NCBI GenBank assembly: GCA_005804885.1
Contig: SYOX01000083.1
Coordinates: 30,457-94,456 of the forward strand
DNA length: 64,000 nt
Source of the DNA: Pseudomonadota bacterium
GTDB lineage: Bacteria; Myxococcota_A; Bradymonadia; Bradymonadales; GCA-2716585
Direction: 5' to 3'
In this document: piece by piece, positions 3,482 through 16,977 of the stretch
How positions within the stretch are numbered: the stretch's first letter is position 1
How the letters are laid out: every line of letters begins with the position of its first letter
Position numbers and translations under genes: made by a program
The notes under the pieces: generated by a model
What the model was told of the DNA's origin: nothing
The model's input: only the letters and a program-made list of their open reading frames with translations
Database searches by the model: none

Positions 3482-3599
3482 GGGGCCGCCAGACGGGCGT
3501 CAAGGCGGGCACAGTAGCACAGGCTGCGCGGGCTGATTGCGCGGATCGCGCATGTTGTGGCAGGGTTCGGGGGGAGTCAGCTCAAGCCGAGAGCGTCGG

Positions 3600-5753
3600 A
3601 TGGGAGAAGCCGGGACAGGGGCCTATGGGCCGGGGGAGTCGATGCTGGATCAGCTCGCGCGGGTGCGCTTGTGGCTGGCGAGGCACCAGATCCTGTATGC
3701 GGAGCGGGAGCTGCATCCGGACCCGAGATCGCGGCACATGTTCGTCAGCGACGCCGAGTTCAGGGACACGCTCAGGGCCGAGGGGCCGGATCACGCGGCG
3801 CTGGAGGCGATAGAGCGTGAGCTGGAGGCGCTGGCGGGGCGCATCGAGGCGCGGGTCGAGGAGACGCTGATCGAGGGCGGCTCGGCGCCGCTGGAGGAGC
3901 TCCGGGCGGCCTTCCGGCTCAGCGACGTGGAGGTGGACGTGATCGTGGCGCTGGCGGCGCCGGAGATCGAGCAGCGGCTGGCCAGGGCCTACACCAACGC
4001 GTGGAGCGACTTTACGCTCAAGCAGGTCGAGGTGGCCTTCCTGATGGAGCTGCTGGGGCCGACGTGGGCGCGGCAGCAGGAGCTGCGCGAGGCGCTCTCG
4101 CTGGGGAGCCGGCTGGACGAGTACCTGCTGATCCACAGCTTCGGGAGCGACAAGTGGGCGCCGGACACGCCGCTGCTCTATCGGCGGCTGAAGCTCTCGG
4201 ACAGGCTCGTGGACTTCCTGTTGACGGGCCGGGGGGAGCGCCTGGATCGGGGTCTGGGGCGCTCGGCGAGGTTGGTGGCGGCGGGGCCGGGGGCGCTCGA
4301 CGGGCTCTTGATGCCGGAGGAGATCAAGCGCGGGCTGGTGCGGGTGTTGAGCAACAGCGCGCGGGAGCGGGGCGCGCGGGTGGCGCTGATCAGCCCGCCG
4401 GGTTGCGGGCGCAAGTCGCTGGCGGCGGCGCTGGCGGGGATGCCGGGGCGGCGCCTGCTGGTGCTCGACGCGCGCAGGCTGCCGCAGTCGGCGGCGGAGC
4501 TGGAGGTGGTGCTGCGGACCGCGCTTCGGGACGCGCACCTGGCGCGCGCGGACCTCTACCTGGATGTGCCGCCGTCGTTCTGCGACGACAGGCTGGCGCC
4601 GGAGGCCCGGCAGGCGCTCATCGACCTGCTGGGGTGGATGCCGGGGACGGTCTACATCGGCGCGGAGGTGGAGCCGGAGTGGCTCACGATGGTGTCCGGC
4701 GTGATCGTCTTCCGGCTGCCCTTCCCGACCGTCGAGGTGCAGGAGGCGCTCTGGCGGCGGCAGCTGGCCGGCCACGCGACGCTGGATCGGGACATCCCGC
4801 TGGAGGTGCTGGTGTCGGCCTACTCGCTCAGCGGCGGCGCCATCGAGATCGCCGCGCGCGAGGCGATCCACCAGTCGAGGGTGACGGGGGCGGGGCGCCA
4901 GGTGGTGATCTCGCGCTCGACGGTGACGGCCTGCGCGCAGGAGCAGCTCTCGCACCGGCTGGGCTTGCTGGCCGAGAAGGTCACGCAGATGTTGACCTGG
5001 AACGAGCTGGTGCTGCCGGACAAGACGATGAACGTGCTCAAGGATCTGGTGGCGCAGTACCGCAACCAGAACCGGGTCTTCAACGAGTGGGGCTTCAACA
5101 CCAAGGTGGCCTACGGTCGGGGGCTCACGGCGCTCTTTCACGGGCCGCCGGGCACGGGCAAGACGATGGTGGCCGGGATCATCGCGCGGGAGCTGGGCCT
5201 GGAGCTGTACAAGATCGACTTGAGCCGGGTGGTCGACAAGTACATCGGGGAGACGGAGAAGAACCTGGGGCGGATCTTCGACGAGGCCACCCGCTCGCGG
5301 GCCATCCTGCTCTTCGACGAGGCCGACAGCCTCTTCAGCAAGCGCACCCAGGTCAAGTCCAGCCACGATCGCTACGCCAACCTGGAGACGAACTACCTCC
5401 TGCAGCGCCTGGAGAGCTACGAGGGGGTGGCGCTCTTGACGACGAACTTCGAGGCCTCTCTGGACGAGGCCTTCAAGCGCCGGCTGCGCTTCAAGATCGC
5501 CTTCCCCTTCCCGGACGCCAAGGAGCGCGGCGCGCTCTGGGAGGCGATGATGCCAGGGCAGGCCTATGTGGAGGGGCCGCTGGACTTTGGGGGGCTCGGC
5601 GAGCATTTCGAGATGACCGGCGGGCACATCAAGAACGCGATGCTGCGAGGGGCCTTCTCGGCCGCGCAGCAAGGCAGCCCCATCACCGCCAGCATCCTCT
5701 ACGAGGCCGCCACGGAAGAGTACCGCGAGATGGGCAAGCTGGTCCGGTCCTGA
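3600..5753 (+). CDS. CDC48-like AAA+ ATPase with degenerate first AAA module
   Basis: C-terminal module LFHGPPGTGKTMVAGIIARELGLELYKIDLSRVVDKYIGETEKNLGRIFDEATRSRAILLFDEADSLFSKR; N-terminal half has the weaker SPPGCGRKSL. ORF opens at 3537; in-frame Met near 3600. Confidence 0.85.
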   Translation: MGEAGTGAYGPGESMLDQLARVRLWLARHQILYAERELHPDPRSRHMFVSDAEFRDTLRAEGPDHAALEAIERELEALAGRIEARVEETLIEGGSAPLEELRAAFRLSDVEVDVIVALAAPEIEQRLARAYTNAWSDFTLKQVEVAFLMELLGPTWARQQELREALSLGSRLDEYLLIHSFGSDKWAPDTPLLYRRLKLSDRLVDFLLTGRGERLDRGLGRSARLVAAGPGALDGLLMPEEIKRGLVRVLSNSARERGARVALISPPGCGRKSLAAALAGMPGRRLLVLDARRLPQSAAELEVVLRTALRDAHLARADLYLDVPPSFCDDRLAPEARQALIDLLGWMPGTVYIGAEVEPEWLTMVSGVIVFRLPFPTVEVQEALWRRQLAGHATLDRDIPLEVLVSAYSLSGGAIEIAAREAIHQSRVTGAGRQVVISRSTVTACAQEQLSHRLGLLAEKVTQMLTWNELVLPDKTMNVLKDLVAQYRNQNRVFNEWGFNTKVAYGRGLTALFHGPPGTGKTMVAGIIARELGLELYKIDLSRVVDKYIGETEKNLGRIFDEATRSRAILLFDEADSLFSKRTQVKSSHDRYANLETNYLLQRLESYEGVALLTTNFEASLDEAFKRRLRFKIAFPFPDAKERGALWEAMMPGQAYVEGPLDFGGLGEHFEMTGGHIKNAMLRGAFSAAQQGSPITASILYEAATEEYREMGKLVRS

Positions 5754-8349: not shown

Positions 8350-8760
8350 TCAGACCAGGGTCGGGCTCATGGAGAGGCGGACGTTGAGGACGCCCTCGAA
8401 GTCCGTGGAGACGAACTGGGCCTTGATGTAGTTGATGCCTCGCAGCGAGAGTTCAAAAACCTCCTCGACGTCGGTGTCGGAGGCGGCGTCGAAGACGAAC
8501 GTGAGGGCTGCAGCGCCGATGGGCGGGAAGTTCATCTTGTCGATGGACTGCAAGAGGGAAAAGGTGAATTTATTGTTGCCAGAGCCCGAGAAGGGCTTGT
8601 TGTCGGTGACGATGCGCAGCCTGAAGATGGCCTCGTTGATCGGGCGCACATCGAGGGCATCCTGATTGCGCGGCGTCCAGGACTGGGGAGCCAGGAGAGT
8701 TCCGGCGGGATGGCCCAGTGTGATCTGTTGATAGGGCAGCACGACGATGGCCATGGTCAA
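8350..8760 (-). CDS. Small PYQxITLG-family paralog C
   Basis: 136 aa; IVVLPYQQITLGHPAGTLLAPQSWTP, shared with the two genes just upstream. Confidence 0.75.
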   Translation of the reverse strand: MTMAIVVLPYQQITLGHPAGTLLAPQSWTPRNQDALDVRPINEAIFRLRIVTDNKPFSGSGNNKFTFSLLQSIDKMNFPPIGAAALTFVFDAASDTDVEEVFELSLRGINYIKAQFVSTDFEGVLNVRLSMSPTLV

Positions 8761-8778
8761 CCTCCGAGGGTGGCTTGG

Positions 8779-9174
8779 TCAGTTGTTCTTCTTCAAGGTC
8801 ATGACGGCCTTGAAAGCGATGGTGCCTTGAAAGTCGACTGATGTCAGTGTCACACGCAGAAATCGTGCGAAGTCTGATGCCGAGGCGAGGATGTCCTGAG
8901 TGAACACACCCCCTCCGGTGACGTTGACGGTCTGGGTGTCAAGCGGGGGAAAGTACTGCTTGTCGTTGGAATGCTGCAGATCGATGGTGAAGGACAGGCT
9001 GCCTGCGGGGGGGGAGAGGGTTTCGACGAAGTACTGGATGGAGACCAAGGTGTGGCCCAGGGCATCGTAGGCCTTCTCGGCGGGGGGGGTCCAGGACGAG
9101 GGGGCCGTCCGGGTGCCCCCGAGGTGGCCGAGGGTGATCAACTGGTAGGGCACGATCTCAACGATGGTGGTCAT
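8779..9174 (-). CDS. Small PYQxITLG-family paralog B
   Basis: 131 aa; TIVEIVPYQLITLGHLGGTRTAPSSWTPP; tandem with paralogs A and C. Confidence 0.75.
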   Translation of the reverse strand: MTTIVEIVPYQLITLGHLGGTRTAPSSWTPPAEKAYDALGHTLVSIQYFVETLSPPAGSLSFTIDLQHSNDKQYFPPLDTQTVNVTGGGVFTQDILASASDFARFLRVTLTSVDFQGTIAFKAVMTLKKNN

Positions 9175-9239
9175 GGGCTCCTCAGGCGTTGGGGCCTGGT
9201 CGCGGGGCGACGCCAGGCACGTTGATGCTCACCGTTTGC

Positions 9240-9887
9240 TCACCGTTTGCTCAGCTTGAGCAAGACTCTGAGAGCGAAGGTCTCAGGATCCGAGTTGAAG
9301 GAAACGAGTCGAGGTCGAAGGTAGCGGGCGAACTCGGCGATGTAGCGGGGGGTCTGGACGTTGATGGTTCCGCCGCCCGCAGTGATCGGCGTTTGAACCT
9401 TTGAGGAGGGGATCTCCTCGAAGACGAGGTTGTCCTCCGCGTGATCGACGGCAAACAACAGCCCACCGGGGTGGCTGCCCGTGGTCGGGACAAGCGCCTG
9501 GATGCTGACCTGGAGGATCCCGAAGTTGTAGCCTTCGGCGTCCACCGACTCCTCCCTGGGTCTGGCCCAGGTGTTGGGCGTCAAGCTCCCGCCGCTCCCT
9601 CCCAGTGTGATGGTCTGGTAGGGGATCAGTTCGATTTCCATGTCATCACCTTTTTGACGGCTCTTATAGGTCATGTTCTCAGATCCCTCAAGAGCCGAGT
9701 CCACATTGGGAGAGAGCGCTGCATGCGCGGTCTCTCCATTCGCCTCACTGTCGAGTTTTCGAGCCAGCCTCTCGATCAAGATCTCTCGCATCAGCCCGAA
9801 GCTGAATGAATTTTTCCGATCAGACCCCAAAAGTCTTGTCAAGAGGGCATCCACGGCACCCATCGCCTCGTTCCGGCTGTCTTGCAT
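9240..9887 (-). CDS. PYQxITLG-family paralog A with possible N-terminal helical extension
   Basis: ATG at 9887 preceded by GGAGG; alternative ATG at 9641 preceded by AAGGTGATGAC gives a 133-aa protein MEIELIPYQTITLGGSGGSLTPNTWARP matching paralogs B and C in size. Confidence 0.7.
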   Translation of the reverse strand: MQDSRNEAMGAVDALLTRLLGSDRKNSFSFGLMREILIERLARKLDSEANGETAHAALSPNVDSALEGSENMTYKSRQKGDDMEIELIPYQTITLGGSGGSLTPNTWARPREESVDAEGYNFGILQVSIQALVPTTGSHPGGLLFAVDHAEDNLVFEEIPSSKVQTPITAGGGTINVQTPRYIAEFARYLRPRLVSFNSDPETFALRVLLKLSKR

Positions 9888-9909
9888 GTCGGCGCCCTCC
9901 GGCTTCACC

Positions 9910-12900
9910 TTATCCTTGAGTTCGGTTCAGCATCCCCCAGATACTTGCAATTTGTTGGTTTCTTTCACCAACGTCAAGACTAGTAGTAGTTCCTATAACC
10001 TCAAAATTGATACTCAGCCAACGCTCAAACGTCCGCTCAAAAGATCTCAACCACATATCGCCCCTCACGCCAGAGTCAAAGCCAAATCTCAACCCTGCGA
10101 GGTTTAGATTGTTGTCGATTCCAAAAGCTTCTCTGCCAATAAATTCGTCCGGCAATCTTTCGGCGAGAATATTTCGACATCCAATAAACACGACCTGATT
10201 CGGATCTGATGGTTTTATCCCCCCGGTTCCGATAGCGGAATAAACAATCTCCGGATACAAGTCCTCCGATACGTTATTTTGGTTTGTTGGCTCTTGCCCA
10301 AACATGAACAACCGAGACTGCCTCACATGACTGGCGGGCGTTGCACTATGGCGAAAAACGTTAAAATGTAAATACTCGCGACTGTTGATCGTCAATCCAT
10401 CCAATGACGCATTAAAAAATATCCCCAAGCTGTTAGCACTGTTAAGGGATAGGGCCAGCTTAGAGTTAAAAGTTGACTCGCTAACAAAAATCTCCCCCCC
10501 CGTCACATGCAAGCCCTGATCAAAATCTTCGTGAATGTGGCATCCCGTCACAACCAACCGATTTGACTTGCTCGAACTCATTCCATAAATCGCCACAAAT
10601 TTGCTGAGTTGCTGTCTGTTGATTCTTCGAAGACCCTCATCCAAAGGCACCCCGTCAGGGCGAAAGCAGCAATTGACAAACTCAAGATGCTGAACATTTT
10701 CTGGGTCATTAGGAATCAAGAGATTGTATAAACCTCGAGCGTTCCGCCTTGTCTGAATTTCGACAGGGTTGTTTCCATCAGTGACAATGTTGAGATCGTC
10801 AATGACAACATTCGGATCCTCGACGATCGAGAAAGAGCAGTTTTGAAATGTGACGTTGTAAGGATTGATGATCCGACCGAACTCGCCTGCATTATGAAGT
10901 CCTGTAGCAATCCCGCTGTTCATCACTCGAACCGTCGAACCGCTGGCGCTGAGGTTGAAGGGTGGCGCATCGGATTGAACATTGTTGAGATACGCGGCGG
11001 CACCTTGTTTGAGGCCAATGTCCAAATCACCGTCCCTTAAGTGAATGTTTTCGCCCAGGAAACGTGAGGGCACGGCCCCATCCAGCTCGATGTCGATCCC
11101 ACTGCTCAGGAAGACATCCCCTCGTGCGATGTTTCGACCCTCAGTGGTCAAATTCTGGACCATGGCGTCCGTGGTCGCAGAGCCAGTCAAGGTCAAGCCC
11201 CCACGGAAGCAGTTGACTGTCTGGCAATCGGAGATCTGAGCCAGAGCATTACCCGCCACTGAAAAGCCATCGCCGCCACTGTTGTGAATAAAGCACCCTT
11301 GAAGGTTGATCAGCGCCTTACCCCGTTGCGCACCCATAAAGACCCCACTCATAAACTCCATCTGAAACTTCTCGAAACCCCTTCGATCACCATCATCGAT
11401 TAGAGATGAAAGATTCATATCAAAGTTAAATCCAAAGATGGAGAACAGACTAGAAGTTTTTAAAGGTTGATCATATGTCTGCGTTGTAAAACATCTGCCC
11501 AGATTAAACTGTCCATTATGGGTCAGCCTTGGACCCACCCGATTTTCATAATCTTCAAGGGCCACCGCTTCATTGATCACGGCCTCATTGAGGCAAGAAA
11601 TTATCCTGTTATTGCGATCATCGACGCTGACCAGACCATTAAGATCACATTCGATCCGTAATCGATTCGGGCCAATCATCTGTCCCGAAAGGTCTGGTTT
11701 TAGAGAGAGCTTCATCGAAGCTTCAATCACCGACTGCAAACTAATCAAATCCAACCTGATATCACTTTCTGGAAGAACCTGGATGAAGTCGCCTAATCCC
11801 CCAGCCACGCCTCTCACATTTCCTATGTCTAGGGGAGCGGGCGGGACATTAAAGCTTCTTAATCTTGCTGAAAGCTCGTTAAATACCGGAGTCGAATCCG
11901 CCTGGTGCCAATTGGATTGAGGGTCCAACTCGCCAGGGTCCAATTCGCCACGATGAAAATCAAATTTGGATCTTATCTCATTTGCGAACTCAGAGAGGCG
12001 CGCCAGATCTGTTTCATTATCATCGAGGTTTGCAGTAATTACCTGATCGCTGATATCGCCCTTGTGAAGGTCTTGAGCCGAAATGTGGCCGTTAAAGTCA
12101 TTTTTAAGAGCTATAAGAAGTGTGCGGACGGCTTCCGCTGTATCAAGAGGAATCTCTAAAGCATTGCCTGGGATGCTCTGGTGTGTTGTGTCCTTGGCTA
12201 TAGCTGAATCATTCCTTCTAAATTGAAAAGATCCACCATGAAGGGCAAGGCCAATCGACCCGCCAAACCGCCGCTGAACCACCTGGCTGTTGCGGTGTAA
12301 GTGGAGCACTACCCGAAGCTCGTTGGCAAGCCGCGCTATGCTCCCCAAGTCCGCCGTAGCCTCCAGCTCTGGAAGAACCTCCGAGGACGCCTGGCGGATC
12401 ACGGCCCCCAAACCGTCGTAGGTCAGACCCTCTTTTAGGTGAACCTCCGTGACCGTAAAGGTTCCCCGGAACTTGATCGTCTGCCCCAGCCGACCGCCGC
12501 GCTCTAAACGGGCGGCATCAGCGGCATTGACACAAGCCTGGATCGATAACGTCGTCGGTGTGATGCGCTCAAACTGCCACACGGTGTTAGGTGGAGTACC
12601 ACCGACCCTGTTCATCGTGACCATGGTGGACTCGGCCACACCACTCGCGGCACCCCACCATTGCGGGTAAAGAACCCCGTTCTTCAAAGGAGCTCGAACT
12701 TGCCGGGTGTCTCCCCTCACCCCACGCCACTCCTCTCCCCCAAAGATTCGGTAAGGCCCGGCCTGAACGTAGCCATGGATGACCGTCTCATAGCCATCGC
12801 CAATCGGTAAAAGTTGAGCGCCTGGATCGAAGACCAGCGTGATGTTCTCGTGAAACGTGACTGCGCTCTCAATTCGATATGTACCAGGAGAGAAGTAGAT

Positions 12901-13047
12901 GGTGCCTCCTCCAGCATCTTGCACGCTATCTGACAATGCCTTCAAACCAATGAAGTCGTTATGAGAACCATTGCCAAGGACAGGCTCATCAGGCACCAAA
13001 CGACTGTTCTTGGCGAAGTACCACTGGCCTTCAAGAGACATGATCAC
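9910..13047 (-). CDS. Large right-handed beta-helix (pectate lyase/tailspike-like) protein
   Basis: ~1045 aa; GGGTIYFSPGTYRIESAVTFHENITLVFDPGAQL ... VIHGYVQAGPYRIF ... LYPQWWGA, then N/G/S-rich beta-helix rungs; no N-terminal signal peptide visible. Confidence 0.75.
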   Translation of the reverse strand: MIMSLEGQWYFAKNSRLVPDEPVLGNGSHNDFIGLKALSDSVQDAGGGTIYFSPGTYRIESAVTFHENITLVFDPGAQLLPIGDGYETVIHGYVQAGPYRIFGGEEWRGVRGDTRQVRAPLKNGVLYPQWWGAASGVAESTMVTMNRVGGTPPNTVWQFERITPTTLSIQACVNAADAARLERGGRLGQTIKFRGTFTVTEVHLKEGLTYDGLGAVIRQASSEVLPELEATADLGSIARLANELRVVLHLHRNSQVVQRRFGGSIGLALHGGSFQFRRNDSAIAKDTTHQSIPGNALEIPLDTAEAVRTLLIALKNDFNGHISAQDLHKGDISDQVITANLDDNETDLARLSEFANEIRSKFDFHRGELDPGELDPQSNWHQADSTPVFNELSARLRSFNVPPAPLDIGNVRGVAGGLGDFIQVLPESDIRLDLISLQSVIEASMKLSLKPDLSGQMIGPNRLRIECDLNGLVSVDDRNNRIISCLNEAVINEAVALEDYENRVGPRLTHNGQFNLGRCFTTQTYDQPLKTSSLFSIFGFNFDMNLSSLIDDGDRRGFEKFQMEFMSGVFMGAQRGKALINLQGCFIHNSGGDGFSVAGNALAQISDCQTVNCFRGGLTLTGSATTDAMVQNLTTEGRNIARGDVFLSSGIDIELDGAVPSRFLGENIHLRDGDLDIGLKQGAAAYLNNVQSDAPPFNLSASGSTVRVMNSGIATGLHNAGEFGRIINPYNVTFQNCSFSIVEDPNVVIDDLNIVTDGNNPVEIQTRRNARGLYNLLIPNDPENVQHLEFVNCCFRPDGVPLDEGLRRINRQQLSKFVAIYGMSSSKSNRLVVTGCHIHEDFDQGLHVTGGEIFVSESTFNSKLALSLNSANSLGIFFNASLDGLTINSREYLHFNVFRHSATPASHVRQSRLFMFGQEPTNQNNVSEDLYPEIVYSAIGTGGIKPSDPNQVVFIGCRNILAERLPDEFIGREAFGIDNNLNLAGLRFGFDSGVRGDMWLRSFERTFERWLSINFEVIGTTTSLDVGERNQQIASIWGMLNRTQG

Positions 13048-14999
13048 ATAGCCTCATATGGTAAAAAGTAGATTTTCTCGTCTCTCGGGCGATCGTCGTC
13101 AGAGCCGGCGCATAAGTAGAACAGGCCGTGGTCTGGATTAAAACCTATGCATCCGCCAAGATTTCTAGCCTCATCCGTCAAAACAATATCTGCACTATCC
13201 ACCCGATATATCGATGGGGCTACAGGTCCGAAAAACACGTAAGTCCTGATCTTGTCGCCCTCAAATCTGCCCGTAAGAAACAAATCGCCAAATCCGTCCC
13301 TATTAATGTCTTTAGAGGCTAAATTGTATCCCACTTTCTCTCTCTCTATACCCCATCCGATGAAAGAAATATTTATGTCCTCGGAGTATGTTAGCTGTGC
13401 AGGAGGTCCAATAATTAGGTATGTGCGACCGCGATCATACCCACTGGGCGATGTCAGCATTAAATCGTCGAAACCGTCGTTATTTTGATCCTCAACGACT
13501 ATTGCCCTATTACCAAGAGCGGATCCAATGTTGCTACCTGCGACAACAGCATTGGCGCCGTCCAAACGATACCTGCCTTCCAATGGACCATAAAAGAGAT
13601 AGGCTCCGCCCTGCACCAAAATATTTGTGGGTCGGCTTCCTTCAGCCCCAATCAAGATATCCGCGATCCCATCGCCATTGACGTCCCCTGAGTTGATGGG
13701 AGCACTCCCAGCGTTAGTGGCGGAGTCAAACTCAAACATGGCATCGGCTTGAAGAAGCTCCGTTCGCTCTCGGAGCGGATTCAGCCACAGAGAAATACGA
13801 CCCCTTAAAGTTGACGTAAAGACAAAATCATCGGCTCCATCATCATTAATATCTCCTAATGAGTTGATGCCTGATCCGCTTATTAATGAGTTAGGAAGAT
13901 AATCAATACGCCAATCAGGCTCGTTAACCCTTAAACAATCGAGGAGGCCTTCATGATAATGATCGCAATAAACCCCTTCTTGCACAGGGCCGAAGTAGAT
14001 GCTATATCCAAGATAGTGATCGCTCGAAGCAACAATTACATCGTCGTATTGATCGCCATTAATATCTCCGAGCCCAACTTTAGCCGTTCTTTGAGCAAAA
14101 TACACCTGGGCTTCACCAGCAAGGCTAATCTCTCGATCTCGGGGAAAAGGCCCGTACATCAAGAACGCACTTGAGGGGATGTCATTCTCCACCAGGATGT
14201 CAAAAAATCCATCGTTGTTAACATCACCTGTCGCCAAAAACGAAGTGGTAGAATAAAGATCGATGTCCCTGAAGGTGTGTACCGCATAGTCCTGTACCTG
14301 TCTCGTTCGAGAGGCCACGCAAGCGGGCTCACCCGCACAGATGACCGTTTCGGTGTCCGTGCAGATATAATGATTACAGCCCCGACAAGACGAGCCTGGC
14401 TCGTGGGCCAGCTCCGCGCAGCCTCCACAGGCATTGATGCGCTCATCTTCACAGCGCAGCGCGTTGTTCCCGTCGCACTGCAAGGTCCCATTCGAACAAA
14501 GACCACAAGGGCTGCCTGGTTCTTGCTCCAGTTGGGACTGACCACCGCAAGCATTCAAGACCACACGGGCATCAGGCTCCACGTCAGCGAGATCAACGGC
14601 GGCATCTGTCTGGGCGTCTGGAACCCCTGGCTCTTCGTCGCTGGAGTCCAAGGCATCTGCCACCATGCTGTCGAGAACCTCAGCGTCCATGTCGCCCGAG
14701 TCAAAGACCTCCATTCCAAGGTCTGGCCCAACGTCCAGCACCTCCGTTTCTCCATCGCCTGGGTCAACCACGACATCCACCAGAGCGTCTGGGCTCTCAA
14801 CATCTCCATCGTCGGGATCGTCCGCATCGCGTGGCGTGTTCGATACATCCGGCTCCACCGCACCCGAATCCAACGAACGCTCTCCTTGGCTCGTTGGCGG
14901 ATCCGAACACCCCGCAGTAGACCAGCCAATCAAAAGCAAGCTCAGGGCCATCCGCCAAAGCGCAAATCCGACTCGTTGACTCTGAAGAAACCTTTTCAT
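13044..14999 (-). CDS. FG-GAP/VCBS (integrin alpha-like) repeat lipoprotein with Asp-rich linker and Cys-rich module
   Basis: Lipobox LIGWSTAGC; D/E/V-rich linker; repeats GDVNNDGFFDILVEND, GDINGDQYDDVIVASSD, GDINDDGADDFVFTS, GDVNGDGIADILIGAEG, DQNNDGFDDLMLTS, DINRDGFGDLFLTG. Confidence 0.85.
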   Translation of the reverse strand: MKRFLQSQRVGFALWRMALSLLLIGWSTAGCSDPPTSQGERSLDSGAVEPDVSNTPRDADDPDDGDVESPDALVDVVVDPGDGETEVLDVGPDLGMEVFDSGDMDAEVLDSMVADALDSSDEEPGVPDAQTDAAVDLADVEPDARVVLNACGGQSQLEQEPGSPCGLCSNGTLQCDGNNALRCEDERINACGGCAELAHEPGSSCRGCNHYICTDTETVICAGEPACVASRTRQVQDYAVHTFRDIDLYSTTSFLATGDVNNDGFFDILVENDIPSSAFLMYGPFPRDREISLAGEAQVYFAQRTAKVGLGDINGDQYDDVIVASSDHYLGYSIYFGPVQEGVYCDHYHEGLLDCLRVNEPDWRIDYLPNSLISGSGINSLGDINDDGADDFVFTSTLRGRISLWLNPLRERTELLQADAMFEFDSATNAGSAPINSGDVNGDGIADILIGAEGSRPTNILVQGGAYLFYGPLEGRYRLDGANAVVAGSNIGSALGNRAIVVEDQNNDGFDDLMLTSPSGYDRGRTYLIIGPPAQLTYSEDINISFIGWGIEREKVGYNLASKDINRDGFGDLFLTGRFEGDKIRTYVFFGPVAPSIYRVDSADIVLTDEARNLGGCIGFNPDHGLFYLCAGSDDDRPRDEKIYFLPYEAM

Positions 15000-15005
15000 C
15001 GACGG

Positions 15006-16806
15006 CTATTCCTGGTGGATCCTGGATAAAGCGGCCCACTGTGTTGAGTTTGATGTGCTGGTTCCTGATTGGACACACACCCACTCGTAGTCCTGACCAA
15101 CTCGCGGCGTTGTCAACCTCCAGATATCGCCCTTCAGACCTGCATCTGATGCCCGGGGTTCAGACGTTCCGTAAATCAAGCGCTGTCCAAGCGAATTGAT
15201 CAATCCTATGGGTGGGCCATGAATGATGTTTTCTTCATTGGTGAGCGTTGTCGAAAGATGTGTGATCTTGATTCGTCTTGAATCACTGAGGAAAGACAGA
15301 TAAGCAACACCTTCGTCGTCGGCCAACCTGGACAACTTCACATGGCCAATTCTAAGCAATGCTTCCGCCGTTGGATGAGCTAAAACTTCAATTCCAACTC
15401 TGGACTCCAGCAAGATTCCGTGGATCGTCGCCCTCAATCCGCACTTATAAAAAAGAATTCCCTTGTGAAGACCACTTCCAAATCTACAGTCCTTGATTGA
15501 GAGTTCGCTCTGGCTAGAACTTGTGCCGACCGAAACTATACCAATAAAGGTGTCTGTCAGCTGAATATTGTCAGAATTGTCCGACATTAAAAATTGACAA
15601 CTCGCAAGAGATATATACCCTTTGGCGTCTTCGGATTCAGGCCAAGCGAGCGTGAGCGCTGTCACAGCCTTGCTTCGCGAACCCGCGCCACGATGAATTA
15701 TGAAATCACAATTAGCGAGCGAGTAAAAATTTGACCCCGTGATTAGCGCTGATTTGTGAATATTGAATTCACAATTAGAGAACTTTGCCCTTCCTTCATC
15801 TCCTTTTAAGGTGAGCCCGTTGGACAATGTATTGGTAAACAACAGAGATGCCTGGTTGAATTGTGCTTCAATAGAACCAAACATTGAATTGCTGATAAAA
15901 GCCGTGCCGAATTGATCCTCTCCCTCCGGGACCAGTGAAAGCGACTCCAAGCGCAGTGTACCATCACACACAAAATTAGAAACTTGAAGGGACGTACCGT
16001 CAAGCATCCCATGAATCGAAGTGGCAACACCAAAAGCACGGCTGTTGATGACTTGTAACCGGAGCCCAGCGAGCGCCGTCAAGCCGACAAGGGAAGAATT
16101 CATAAAAGAGCAGTTGGACACCAGAACGTGGACTGGAAGATCTCCGGGCTCCAGAGTCAGTAAGCTCGTAGACTCAACATCATCAGAATCAATGTTGCCA
16201 AGATCGTCTTGATCGCCAAATGTGAATCCATAAATGGTGGTCAAGAGAGATAAGTCGACAGTGTGTGTCGCGATACGTGATGGCGAGAGATCCGTAAATC
16301 TCCGTGCCTTCTCCAAGATAGGTCTTCCCAAAAGGAAGTCTGACTGTTCTGCTGAACACATACTGACCAGAGATGAACCGAATGATTCCTGGGCCGCGCG
16401 GGAGGCTCTTGAGCATGAAGCTCATCCCACTGCTGTTCCCATCCGCAAGTGATTGAATGTTGTCGTTGACGCCAGAAAGTACCGATACACCCCACCACTG
16501 AGGGAAAATCTCGCTCCTGTGATTCCCGAGGCGAAATTTCCCACTTCCAGATGTTTGAAAGATTTGGTGAGGACCCGCCTGAATGTGGCCATGAATCACA
16601 ACAATGGCATTGCTGGCAACAAGAGTGGCTGCTTGATCAAAAATAATCTGAACGCTTTCGGGTATGTCGATGGAGGCTGTCAGAATGTGAGTGCCGTTCG
16701 AGAGAAAGACTGACCCCCCCCCCCTTTGCAAAATTCCGCCAATAACCCTCCGAAGAGATATCTCACTCTCGCCACCAGAGGGTATAATGTTCCAGAATTC
16801 TGCCAT
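15006..16806 (-). pseudogene. Second right-handed beta-helix protein, interrupted by a frameshift near 16240-16265
   Basis: 5' part (ORF 16189..16806) has GGGSVFLSNGTHILTASIDIPESVQIIFDQAATL ... VIHGHIQAGPHQIF ... IFPQWWGV; 3' part (ORF 15006..16361) continues as beta-helix in a frame offset by one nt. Confidence 0.65.
16714..16724. repeat. Poly-C/poly-G homopolymer (11 nt) in the coding region of the second beta-helix gene
   Basis: + strand gaCCCCCCCCCCCttt; read as AGG GGG GGG GGG (RGGG) on the minus strand. Confidence 0.9.
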
Positions 16807-16977
16807 AGGTATTCTATAGGTGGCGCTCTTCAGGGTATGAAAAAACCCCGATTCCCTTGTTGCGGTGCTTTAACCATAAGCGGCTGGCCCGTACCGGCTT
16901 TATCCCCATCTTCTCTCAGCATAGGCAAGCCCATCTCGACTGTCAAGCCTTGAAATCGAGCGCTTACCCACACGTCA

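Follow-up and report, generated by a model that had tools for sequence, protein, structure and literature searches.

Related systems

Several described systems come close to the genes discussed here. Some phage tailspikes combine an N-terminal module reading ..GPFxAGLYQVF..YPEWWGA with a β-helix-type body and have no signal peptide. Some eCIS tail fibres end in β-helices of the pectin-lyase type, and Myxococcota are enriched in multi-fibre loci (PMC12923769). SitA of Myxococcus is a lipoprotein toxin that carries escort and nuclease domains; like the cassette described below, the SitA/SitB/SitI set comprises a lipoprotein with an accessory gene just upstream and occurs at several loci per genome (PMC8546572). 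Integrin-type propellers, finally, take part in ligand binding in animals; their role in bacteria is not known (PMC3192720).

We here describe a cassette of β-helix, lipoprotein and small-protein genes from a stretch of bacterial DNA of 64,000 nucleotides (the window). It is a real gene set and is undescribed in the libraries searched. It differs from SitA in that its lipoprotein is a propeller and the partners are leaderless β-helices, which by description sets the two apart. It differs from the eCIS tail fibres in lying outside any sheath locus.

The cassette in the window

All genes of the cassette lie on the minus strand. βA runs from 16806 to 15006, the lipoprotein gene from 14999 to 13044, βB from 13047 to 9910 and the small genes s1 to s3 from 9908 to 8350; then follows gltX. 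The features are:

16918–16946, minus strand: promoter-like TTGACA-17-TATGCT upstream of βA; consensus match 10/12
16189–16806, minus strand: N-terminal part of βA (N-module with PQWWG), ORF of 205 aa; BLASTP to βB E 2e-12, to βA of contig C419 E 1e-6; no signal peptide
16253–16326, minus strand: frame-switch zone of βA; homologue alignments stop and restart in different frames
15006–16361, minus strand: C-terminal β-helix part of βA in another frame, ORF of 451 aa; Pfam Beta_helix E 8e-4, below gathering; weak similarity to βA of genome G022, E 0.01
13044–14999, minus strand: FG-GAP propeller lipoprotein with six Ca-type motifs, 651 aa; FG-GAP E 9e-20; lipobox TAGC
9910–13047, minus strand: βB, leaderless β-helix protein, 1045 aa; tail spike family phrog_2234, E 7e-8; orthologues on C205, C419, C106 and in G022
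9240–9908, minus strand: small paralog s1 (family core 9240–9641); alignments A2 and A3
8779–9174, minus strand: small paralog s2
8350–8760, minus strand: small paralog s3

Gene junctions are tight in all copies of the cassette. In the window, a gap of 6 bp separates βA from the lipoprotein gene, and the latter overlaps βB by 4 bp, provided that βB starts with GTG at position 13047; a possible alternative start in frame is the ATG at 13041. An earlier, sequence-only reading of this DNA had reported a spacing of about 6 bp, a short overlap and three small paralogs, all of which we find, the paralogs at 8350–9908. The s genes of the window come after βB, not before βA as on C205, C419 and C119 of G022. 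With 8 found against 6.4 expected, promoter-like sites are no more frequent in the region than by chance. The upstream in-frame part of the s1 ORF (9642–9908) has a GC3 of 0.64, lower than that of the s core, and by eye no counterpart in other s genes; this part may belong to a different reading or be spurious, perhaps not coding at all. An AAA ATPase with a PF22977 winged-helix domain is encoded at 3537–5753. Its membership of the cassette is not supported: it is on the opposite strand, and no equivalent was seen beside the other copies.

The same reading had two β-helix genes flanking the lipoprotein. Both are there, but βA is spread over two reading frames: the N-module lies in the 205-aa ORF, which overlaps the 451-aa β-helix ORF in a different frame, and homologues put the switch between about 16253 and 16326. 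βA is either a disrupted gene or the victim of an assembly indel at the frame switch. βB on C205, a contig of the same genome, is frame-broken too, and some copies of the cassette may be decaying or misassembled. A programmed frameshift in βA was considered and judged unlikely: βB of C205 is broken elsewhere, and by eye a slippery site is not conspicuous.

The composition of the genes is uneven. The window has about 70% G+C, the β genes and the lipoprotein gene 0.47–0.51, with a GC3 of about 0.5 against about 0.9 in the neighbours. On C205, C419 and C106 the βA-lipoprotein-βB trio has a GC3 of 0.60–0.80. The s genes are host-like, with a GC3 of 0.81–0.85 in the window and of 0.81–0.96 overall. 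In the window, this composition makes the trio look like acquired DNA; for the s genes the impression is weaker.

The β-helix proteins and the propeller lipoprotein

βA and βB have in common an N-terminal module of some 110 residues (about 30% identity over 107 aa in BLASTP), with the pattern GGG..GT..VIHG.xQAGPxxIF..PQWWG visible in both, as the sequence-only reading had noticed. It had also recognised no secretion signal on these proteins, and rightly so: neither signal peptide nor lipobox is present in βA or βB of the window or in the other copies. Features of autotransporters or two-partner secretion (Sec signal, TPS domain or barrel) were likewise absent from the β proteins in the signal scan and in Pfam, and the cassettes showed no exporter gene, nor was a route found by which leaderless proteins could be exported. 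A right-handed β-helix body is suggested by Pfam Beta_helix and Pect-lyase matches, all of them below gathering. Neither Pfam nor the phrog profiles revealed a toxin domain in βA or βB, and no catalytic or binding site was identified in the β proteins. A C-terminal cap resembling that of tail fibres was dropped as a candidate, the matches reaching only E 3–7. Searching PDB sequences with a βB profile gave no match, and the structure predicted for βB from its single sequence (pLDDT 33.0) was too poor to use.

The middle gene had been described as a lipoprotein with at least six FG-GAP or calcium-binding-like repeats, and this is borne out. The protein starts with a type II signal (..STAGC), FG-GAP is its sole Pfam match, and it contains six D-x-N/D-x-D-G/Q-x-x-D motifs, whereas the shuffled protein has a mean of 0.016 and never more than one (2000 shuffles). 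Integrin-type propellers are defined by such repeats with Ca-binding DxNxDGxxD in about seven blades; six such motifs are clear here. In the copies on C205, C419 and C106 the FG-GAP propeller is replaced by one of the RCC1 type, each preceded by a lipobox and an acidic linker; the slot is therefore best called that of a propeller lipoprotein. The lipobox cysteine follows in TAGC in the window, LPAC on C419 and SASC on C106; LWAC on C205 was read by eye from the N-terminus and lies outside the pattern used for the others. Propeller genes elsewhere in the genome are limited in number, and five other loci, read by eye, have no β-helix or s genes adjacent. That propeller lipoproteins occupy all four middle slots by chance is very unlikely. 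The swap of FG-GAP for RCC1 in a fixed gene slot allows the role of the propeller to be addressed directly.

Recurrence of the cassette

A genome search detected relatives of βB on three further contigs of the window's own genome. C205 and C419 have the order s,s,s-βA-lipoprotein-βB; C106 holds a partial copy, lipoprotein-βB, at the contig end. Further searches of this genome turned up a fragment of βB on C1 and, at a contig end on C333, three s genes. In G022, which belongs to another genus of the same family, s,s,s-βA on C119 is cut by the contig end and βB sits on a separate contig of 3 kb, C688. No βB match at E 1e-6 was obtained outside the family, be it among 57 genomes of the class or 377 of the phylum. 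Judged by sequence, the cassette is thus conserved within one family. The sequence-only reading had asked whether the homologous genes ever co-occur elsewhere. They do so in the same order at two more loci of the genome and, split over contigs, in a second genus.

The βB copies are only 24–49% identical to each other. Nevertheless, intact reading frames are found in the pair on C419, in βA of C205 and in βB of C106, which means that the frames were kept through a long divergence.

Relation to phage tailspikes

The match of βB to phrog_2234 extends across the N-module, and the relation to tailspikes, seen also in matches to L066 and L026, is confined to this module. L066, the IMG/VR contig 3300016457_000155, encodes a tailspike-like protein in which the module occurs twice (..GPFQAGLYQVF..YPEWWGA); its neighbours look, by eye, like portal and capsid genes. 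Another such protein is carried by an Elusimicrobia contig of phage-like content. The tail spike of Enterobacter phage Arya matches weakly (E 0.04), and βA of C419 has no match in named phages. βA and βB resemble phage tailspikes in the N-module, the missing signal peptide and a putative β-helix-type body. Unlike them, they lie outside a tail operon, with a propeller lipoprotein and three s genes as companions, and nothing in sequence but the N-module is held in common. No phage structural genes were seen beside the copies in the window, on C205, C419 and C106 or at the loci of G022. Of the earlier proposal that the system derives from phage tailspikes, the shared N-module stands; the rest of βB is not shared and a phage tail operon is missing.

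The module is not restricted to phages. A β-helix protein of Paenibacillus (L025) has it as well (E 2e-14 to βB); in contrast to βB, it starts by eye with an RR-type export signal and has no other cassette genes beside it. Paenibacillus thus has its own versions of N-module proteins, one of them with an RR-type signal.

The small proteins and their neighbours elsewhere

The three PYQxITLG proteins belong to family A3, whose members stand in tandem next to the cassettes on C20, C205, C419 and C119 of G022. None of the s proteins has a signal peptide. Several match the phage family phrog_5707 over most of their length, though weakly (E 2e-7 to 8e-4), and at E ≤ 0.1 the profile is hit by 6 of 11 members, the best at 2e-7. 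A relative of phrog_5707 in L065 is encoded just after a major capsid gene, between this gene and a connector-like one, whereas the s genes stand in tandem threes, and no capsid, portal or terminase gene lies beside them at the cassettes or the other s loci read. In named phages nothing significant was found for s, an s1-type profile had no match in IMG/VR, and an s profile had none among PDB sequences. The structure of s2 predicted from a three-sequence alignment (pLDDT 34.7) was too poor to use.

Matches to the s family occur in 16 of the 377 genomes of the phylum, and the profiles of A3 and A8 match with a probability of 99.0. At the outside loci, where genes were largely read by eye on ORF lists, an HExxH gene lies immediately downstream of an s-like gene in 12 of 13 loci of other families with enough sequence. 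The reverse search with an HExxH protein yielded 23 distinct loci in 12 genomes, 18 of them with s upstream (18 of about 21 testable); of the remaining loci two are cut by contig ends and three have no s found, two of these with little upstream sequence. Six aligned HExxH proteins share invariantly the two His and the Glu of the motif and a later His-Cys. The six scanned against Pfam have no match; these s-linked proteins are putative metalloproteases. In L088–L095, L098, L099, L101 and L102 an s-like gene of about 110 aa directly precedes the gene of a leaderless protein; most of those checked have a Cys-rich N-terminus, and most have HExxH and then HC. Beside the s-HExxH pairs a lipoprotein is suggestive by eye, but no more than 3 of the 13 loci passed a strict filter, and we do not build on it.

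At two loci, C53 (L037, 7982–10326) and C354 of G022 (L058, 261–3105), the genes downstream of s encode a leaderless, proline-rich protein and a short Cys lipoprotein. The proline-rich proteins have similar FPEQL motifs, no β gene is present, and by eye the arrangement is a second type of cassette without β-helix.

Interpretation

The common feature of these loci is an s gene beside a large leaderless protein. On this ground we take s to be a partner in assembly or export, and the β pair to be one of its kinds of cargo. In this tentative view the cassette would bring together small virion-like partners and a leaderless cargo of large size, in this case a β-helix pair of phage origin accompanied by an outer-membrane propeller lipoprotein. 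The s proteins would act in assembly or export; outside the cell, the β-helix pair would bind or cleave a polysaccharide or glycoprotein of a surface; and at the outer membrane the lipoprotein would dock or protect the pair. Several findings count against this view: neither an export route nor a catalytic site was found, the s genes of the window stand behind βB, βA here and βB on C205 have broken frames, and few of the s-HExxH pairs have a lipoprotein beside them by the strict filter. The unrelated leaderless proteins next to s in C53 and C354 of G022 imply that the s proteins may have another role. Less likely is the extension to a phylum-wide, so far undescribed system, in which virion-derived s proteins would help to export or assemble large leaderless proteins, these being β-helix pairs with propeller lipoproteins in one family and HExxH proteases in others. 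If the β proteins leave the cell, they do so with no known signal, which would suggest an unrecognised route for leaderless proteins in these bacteria. The pairing of s with HExxH genes makes the question of a new partner testable in relatives.

A role in surface-displayed adhesion or polysaccharide binding, as first suggested, would be compatible with the cassette. Taken by itself, it leads to a simpler explanation: the β-helix proteins reach the surface, where the lipoprotein holds them, the small proteins serve as accessory adhesins, and no phage-like assembly step is involved. The adjoining of a lipobox-bearing propeller and β genes in four copies speaks for it, as does the ligand binding by animal integrin-type propellers (PMC3192720). 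The missing signal peptides on all β and s proteins and the lack of an exporter gene in the cassettes, however, make plain adhesion doubtful.

Still less probable is a set of effectors and immunity proteins, with the leaderless β-helices as antibacterial or predatory cargo of a contact or contractile system and the lipoprotein protecting the producer. Putative metalloproteases are indeed encoded by s-linked genes elsewhere, and contractile sheath genes exist in the genome, two on C403 (L103) and one on C422 (L105). These, however, are on other contigs, away from the cassettes, and genome-wide searches placed no s or βB match at either sheath locus; for lack of adjacency, a link to contractile injection genes was rejected. 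The absence of a toxin domain from βA and βB also argues against effectors.

Equally improbable is the view that these are tail-fibre genes left from a former prophage or mobile element, decaying and without a present role: the low G+C and GC3 of the trio, the frameshifts in two copies (βA of the window, βB of C205) and the N-module shared with tailspikes would fit, yet further phage structural genes were seen beside none of the copies, the diverged genes on C419, C205 and C106 are intact, the lipoprotein is not phage-like and the s genes have host-like GC3.

Apart from the cassettes, intein-like insertions were seen by eye in three conserved proteins of the same genome (L038, 10800–13664; L059, 2023–9334). 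One host is DUF362-like; on C333 the hosts are SpoVR-like and PrkA-like genes.
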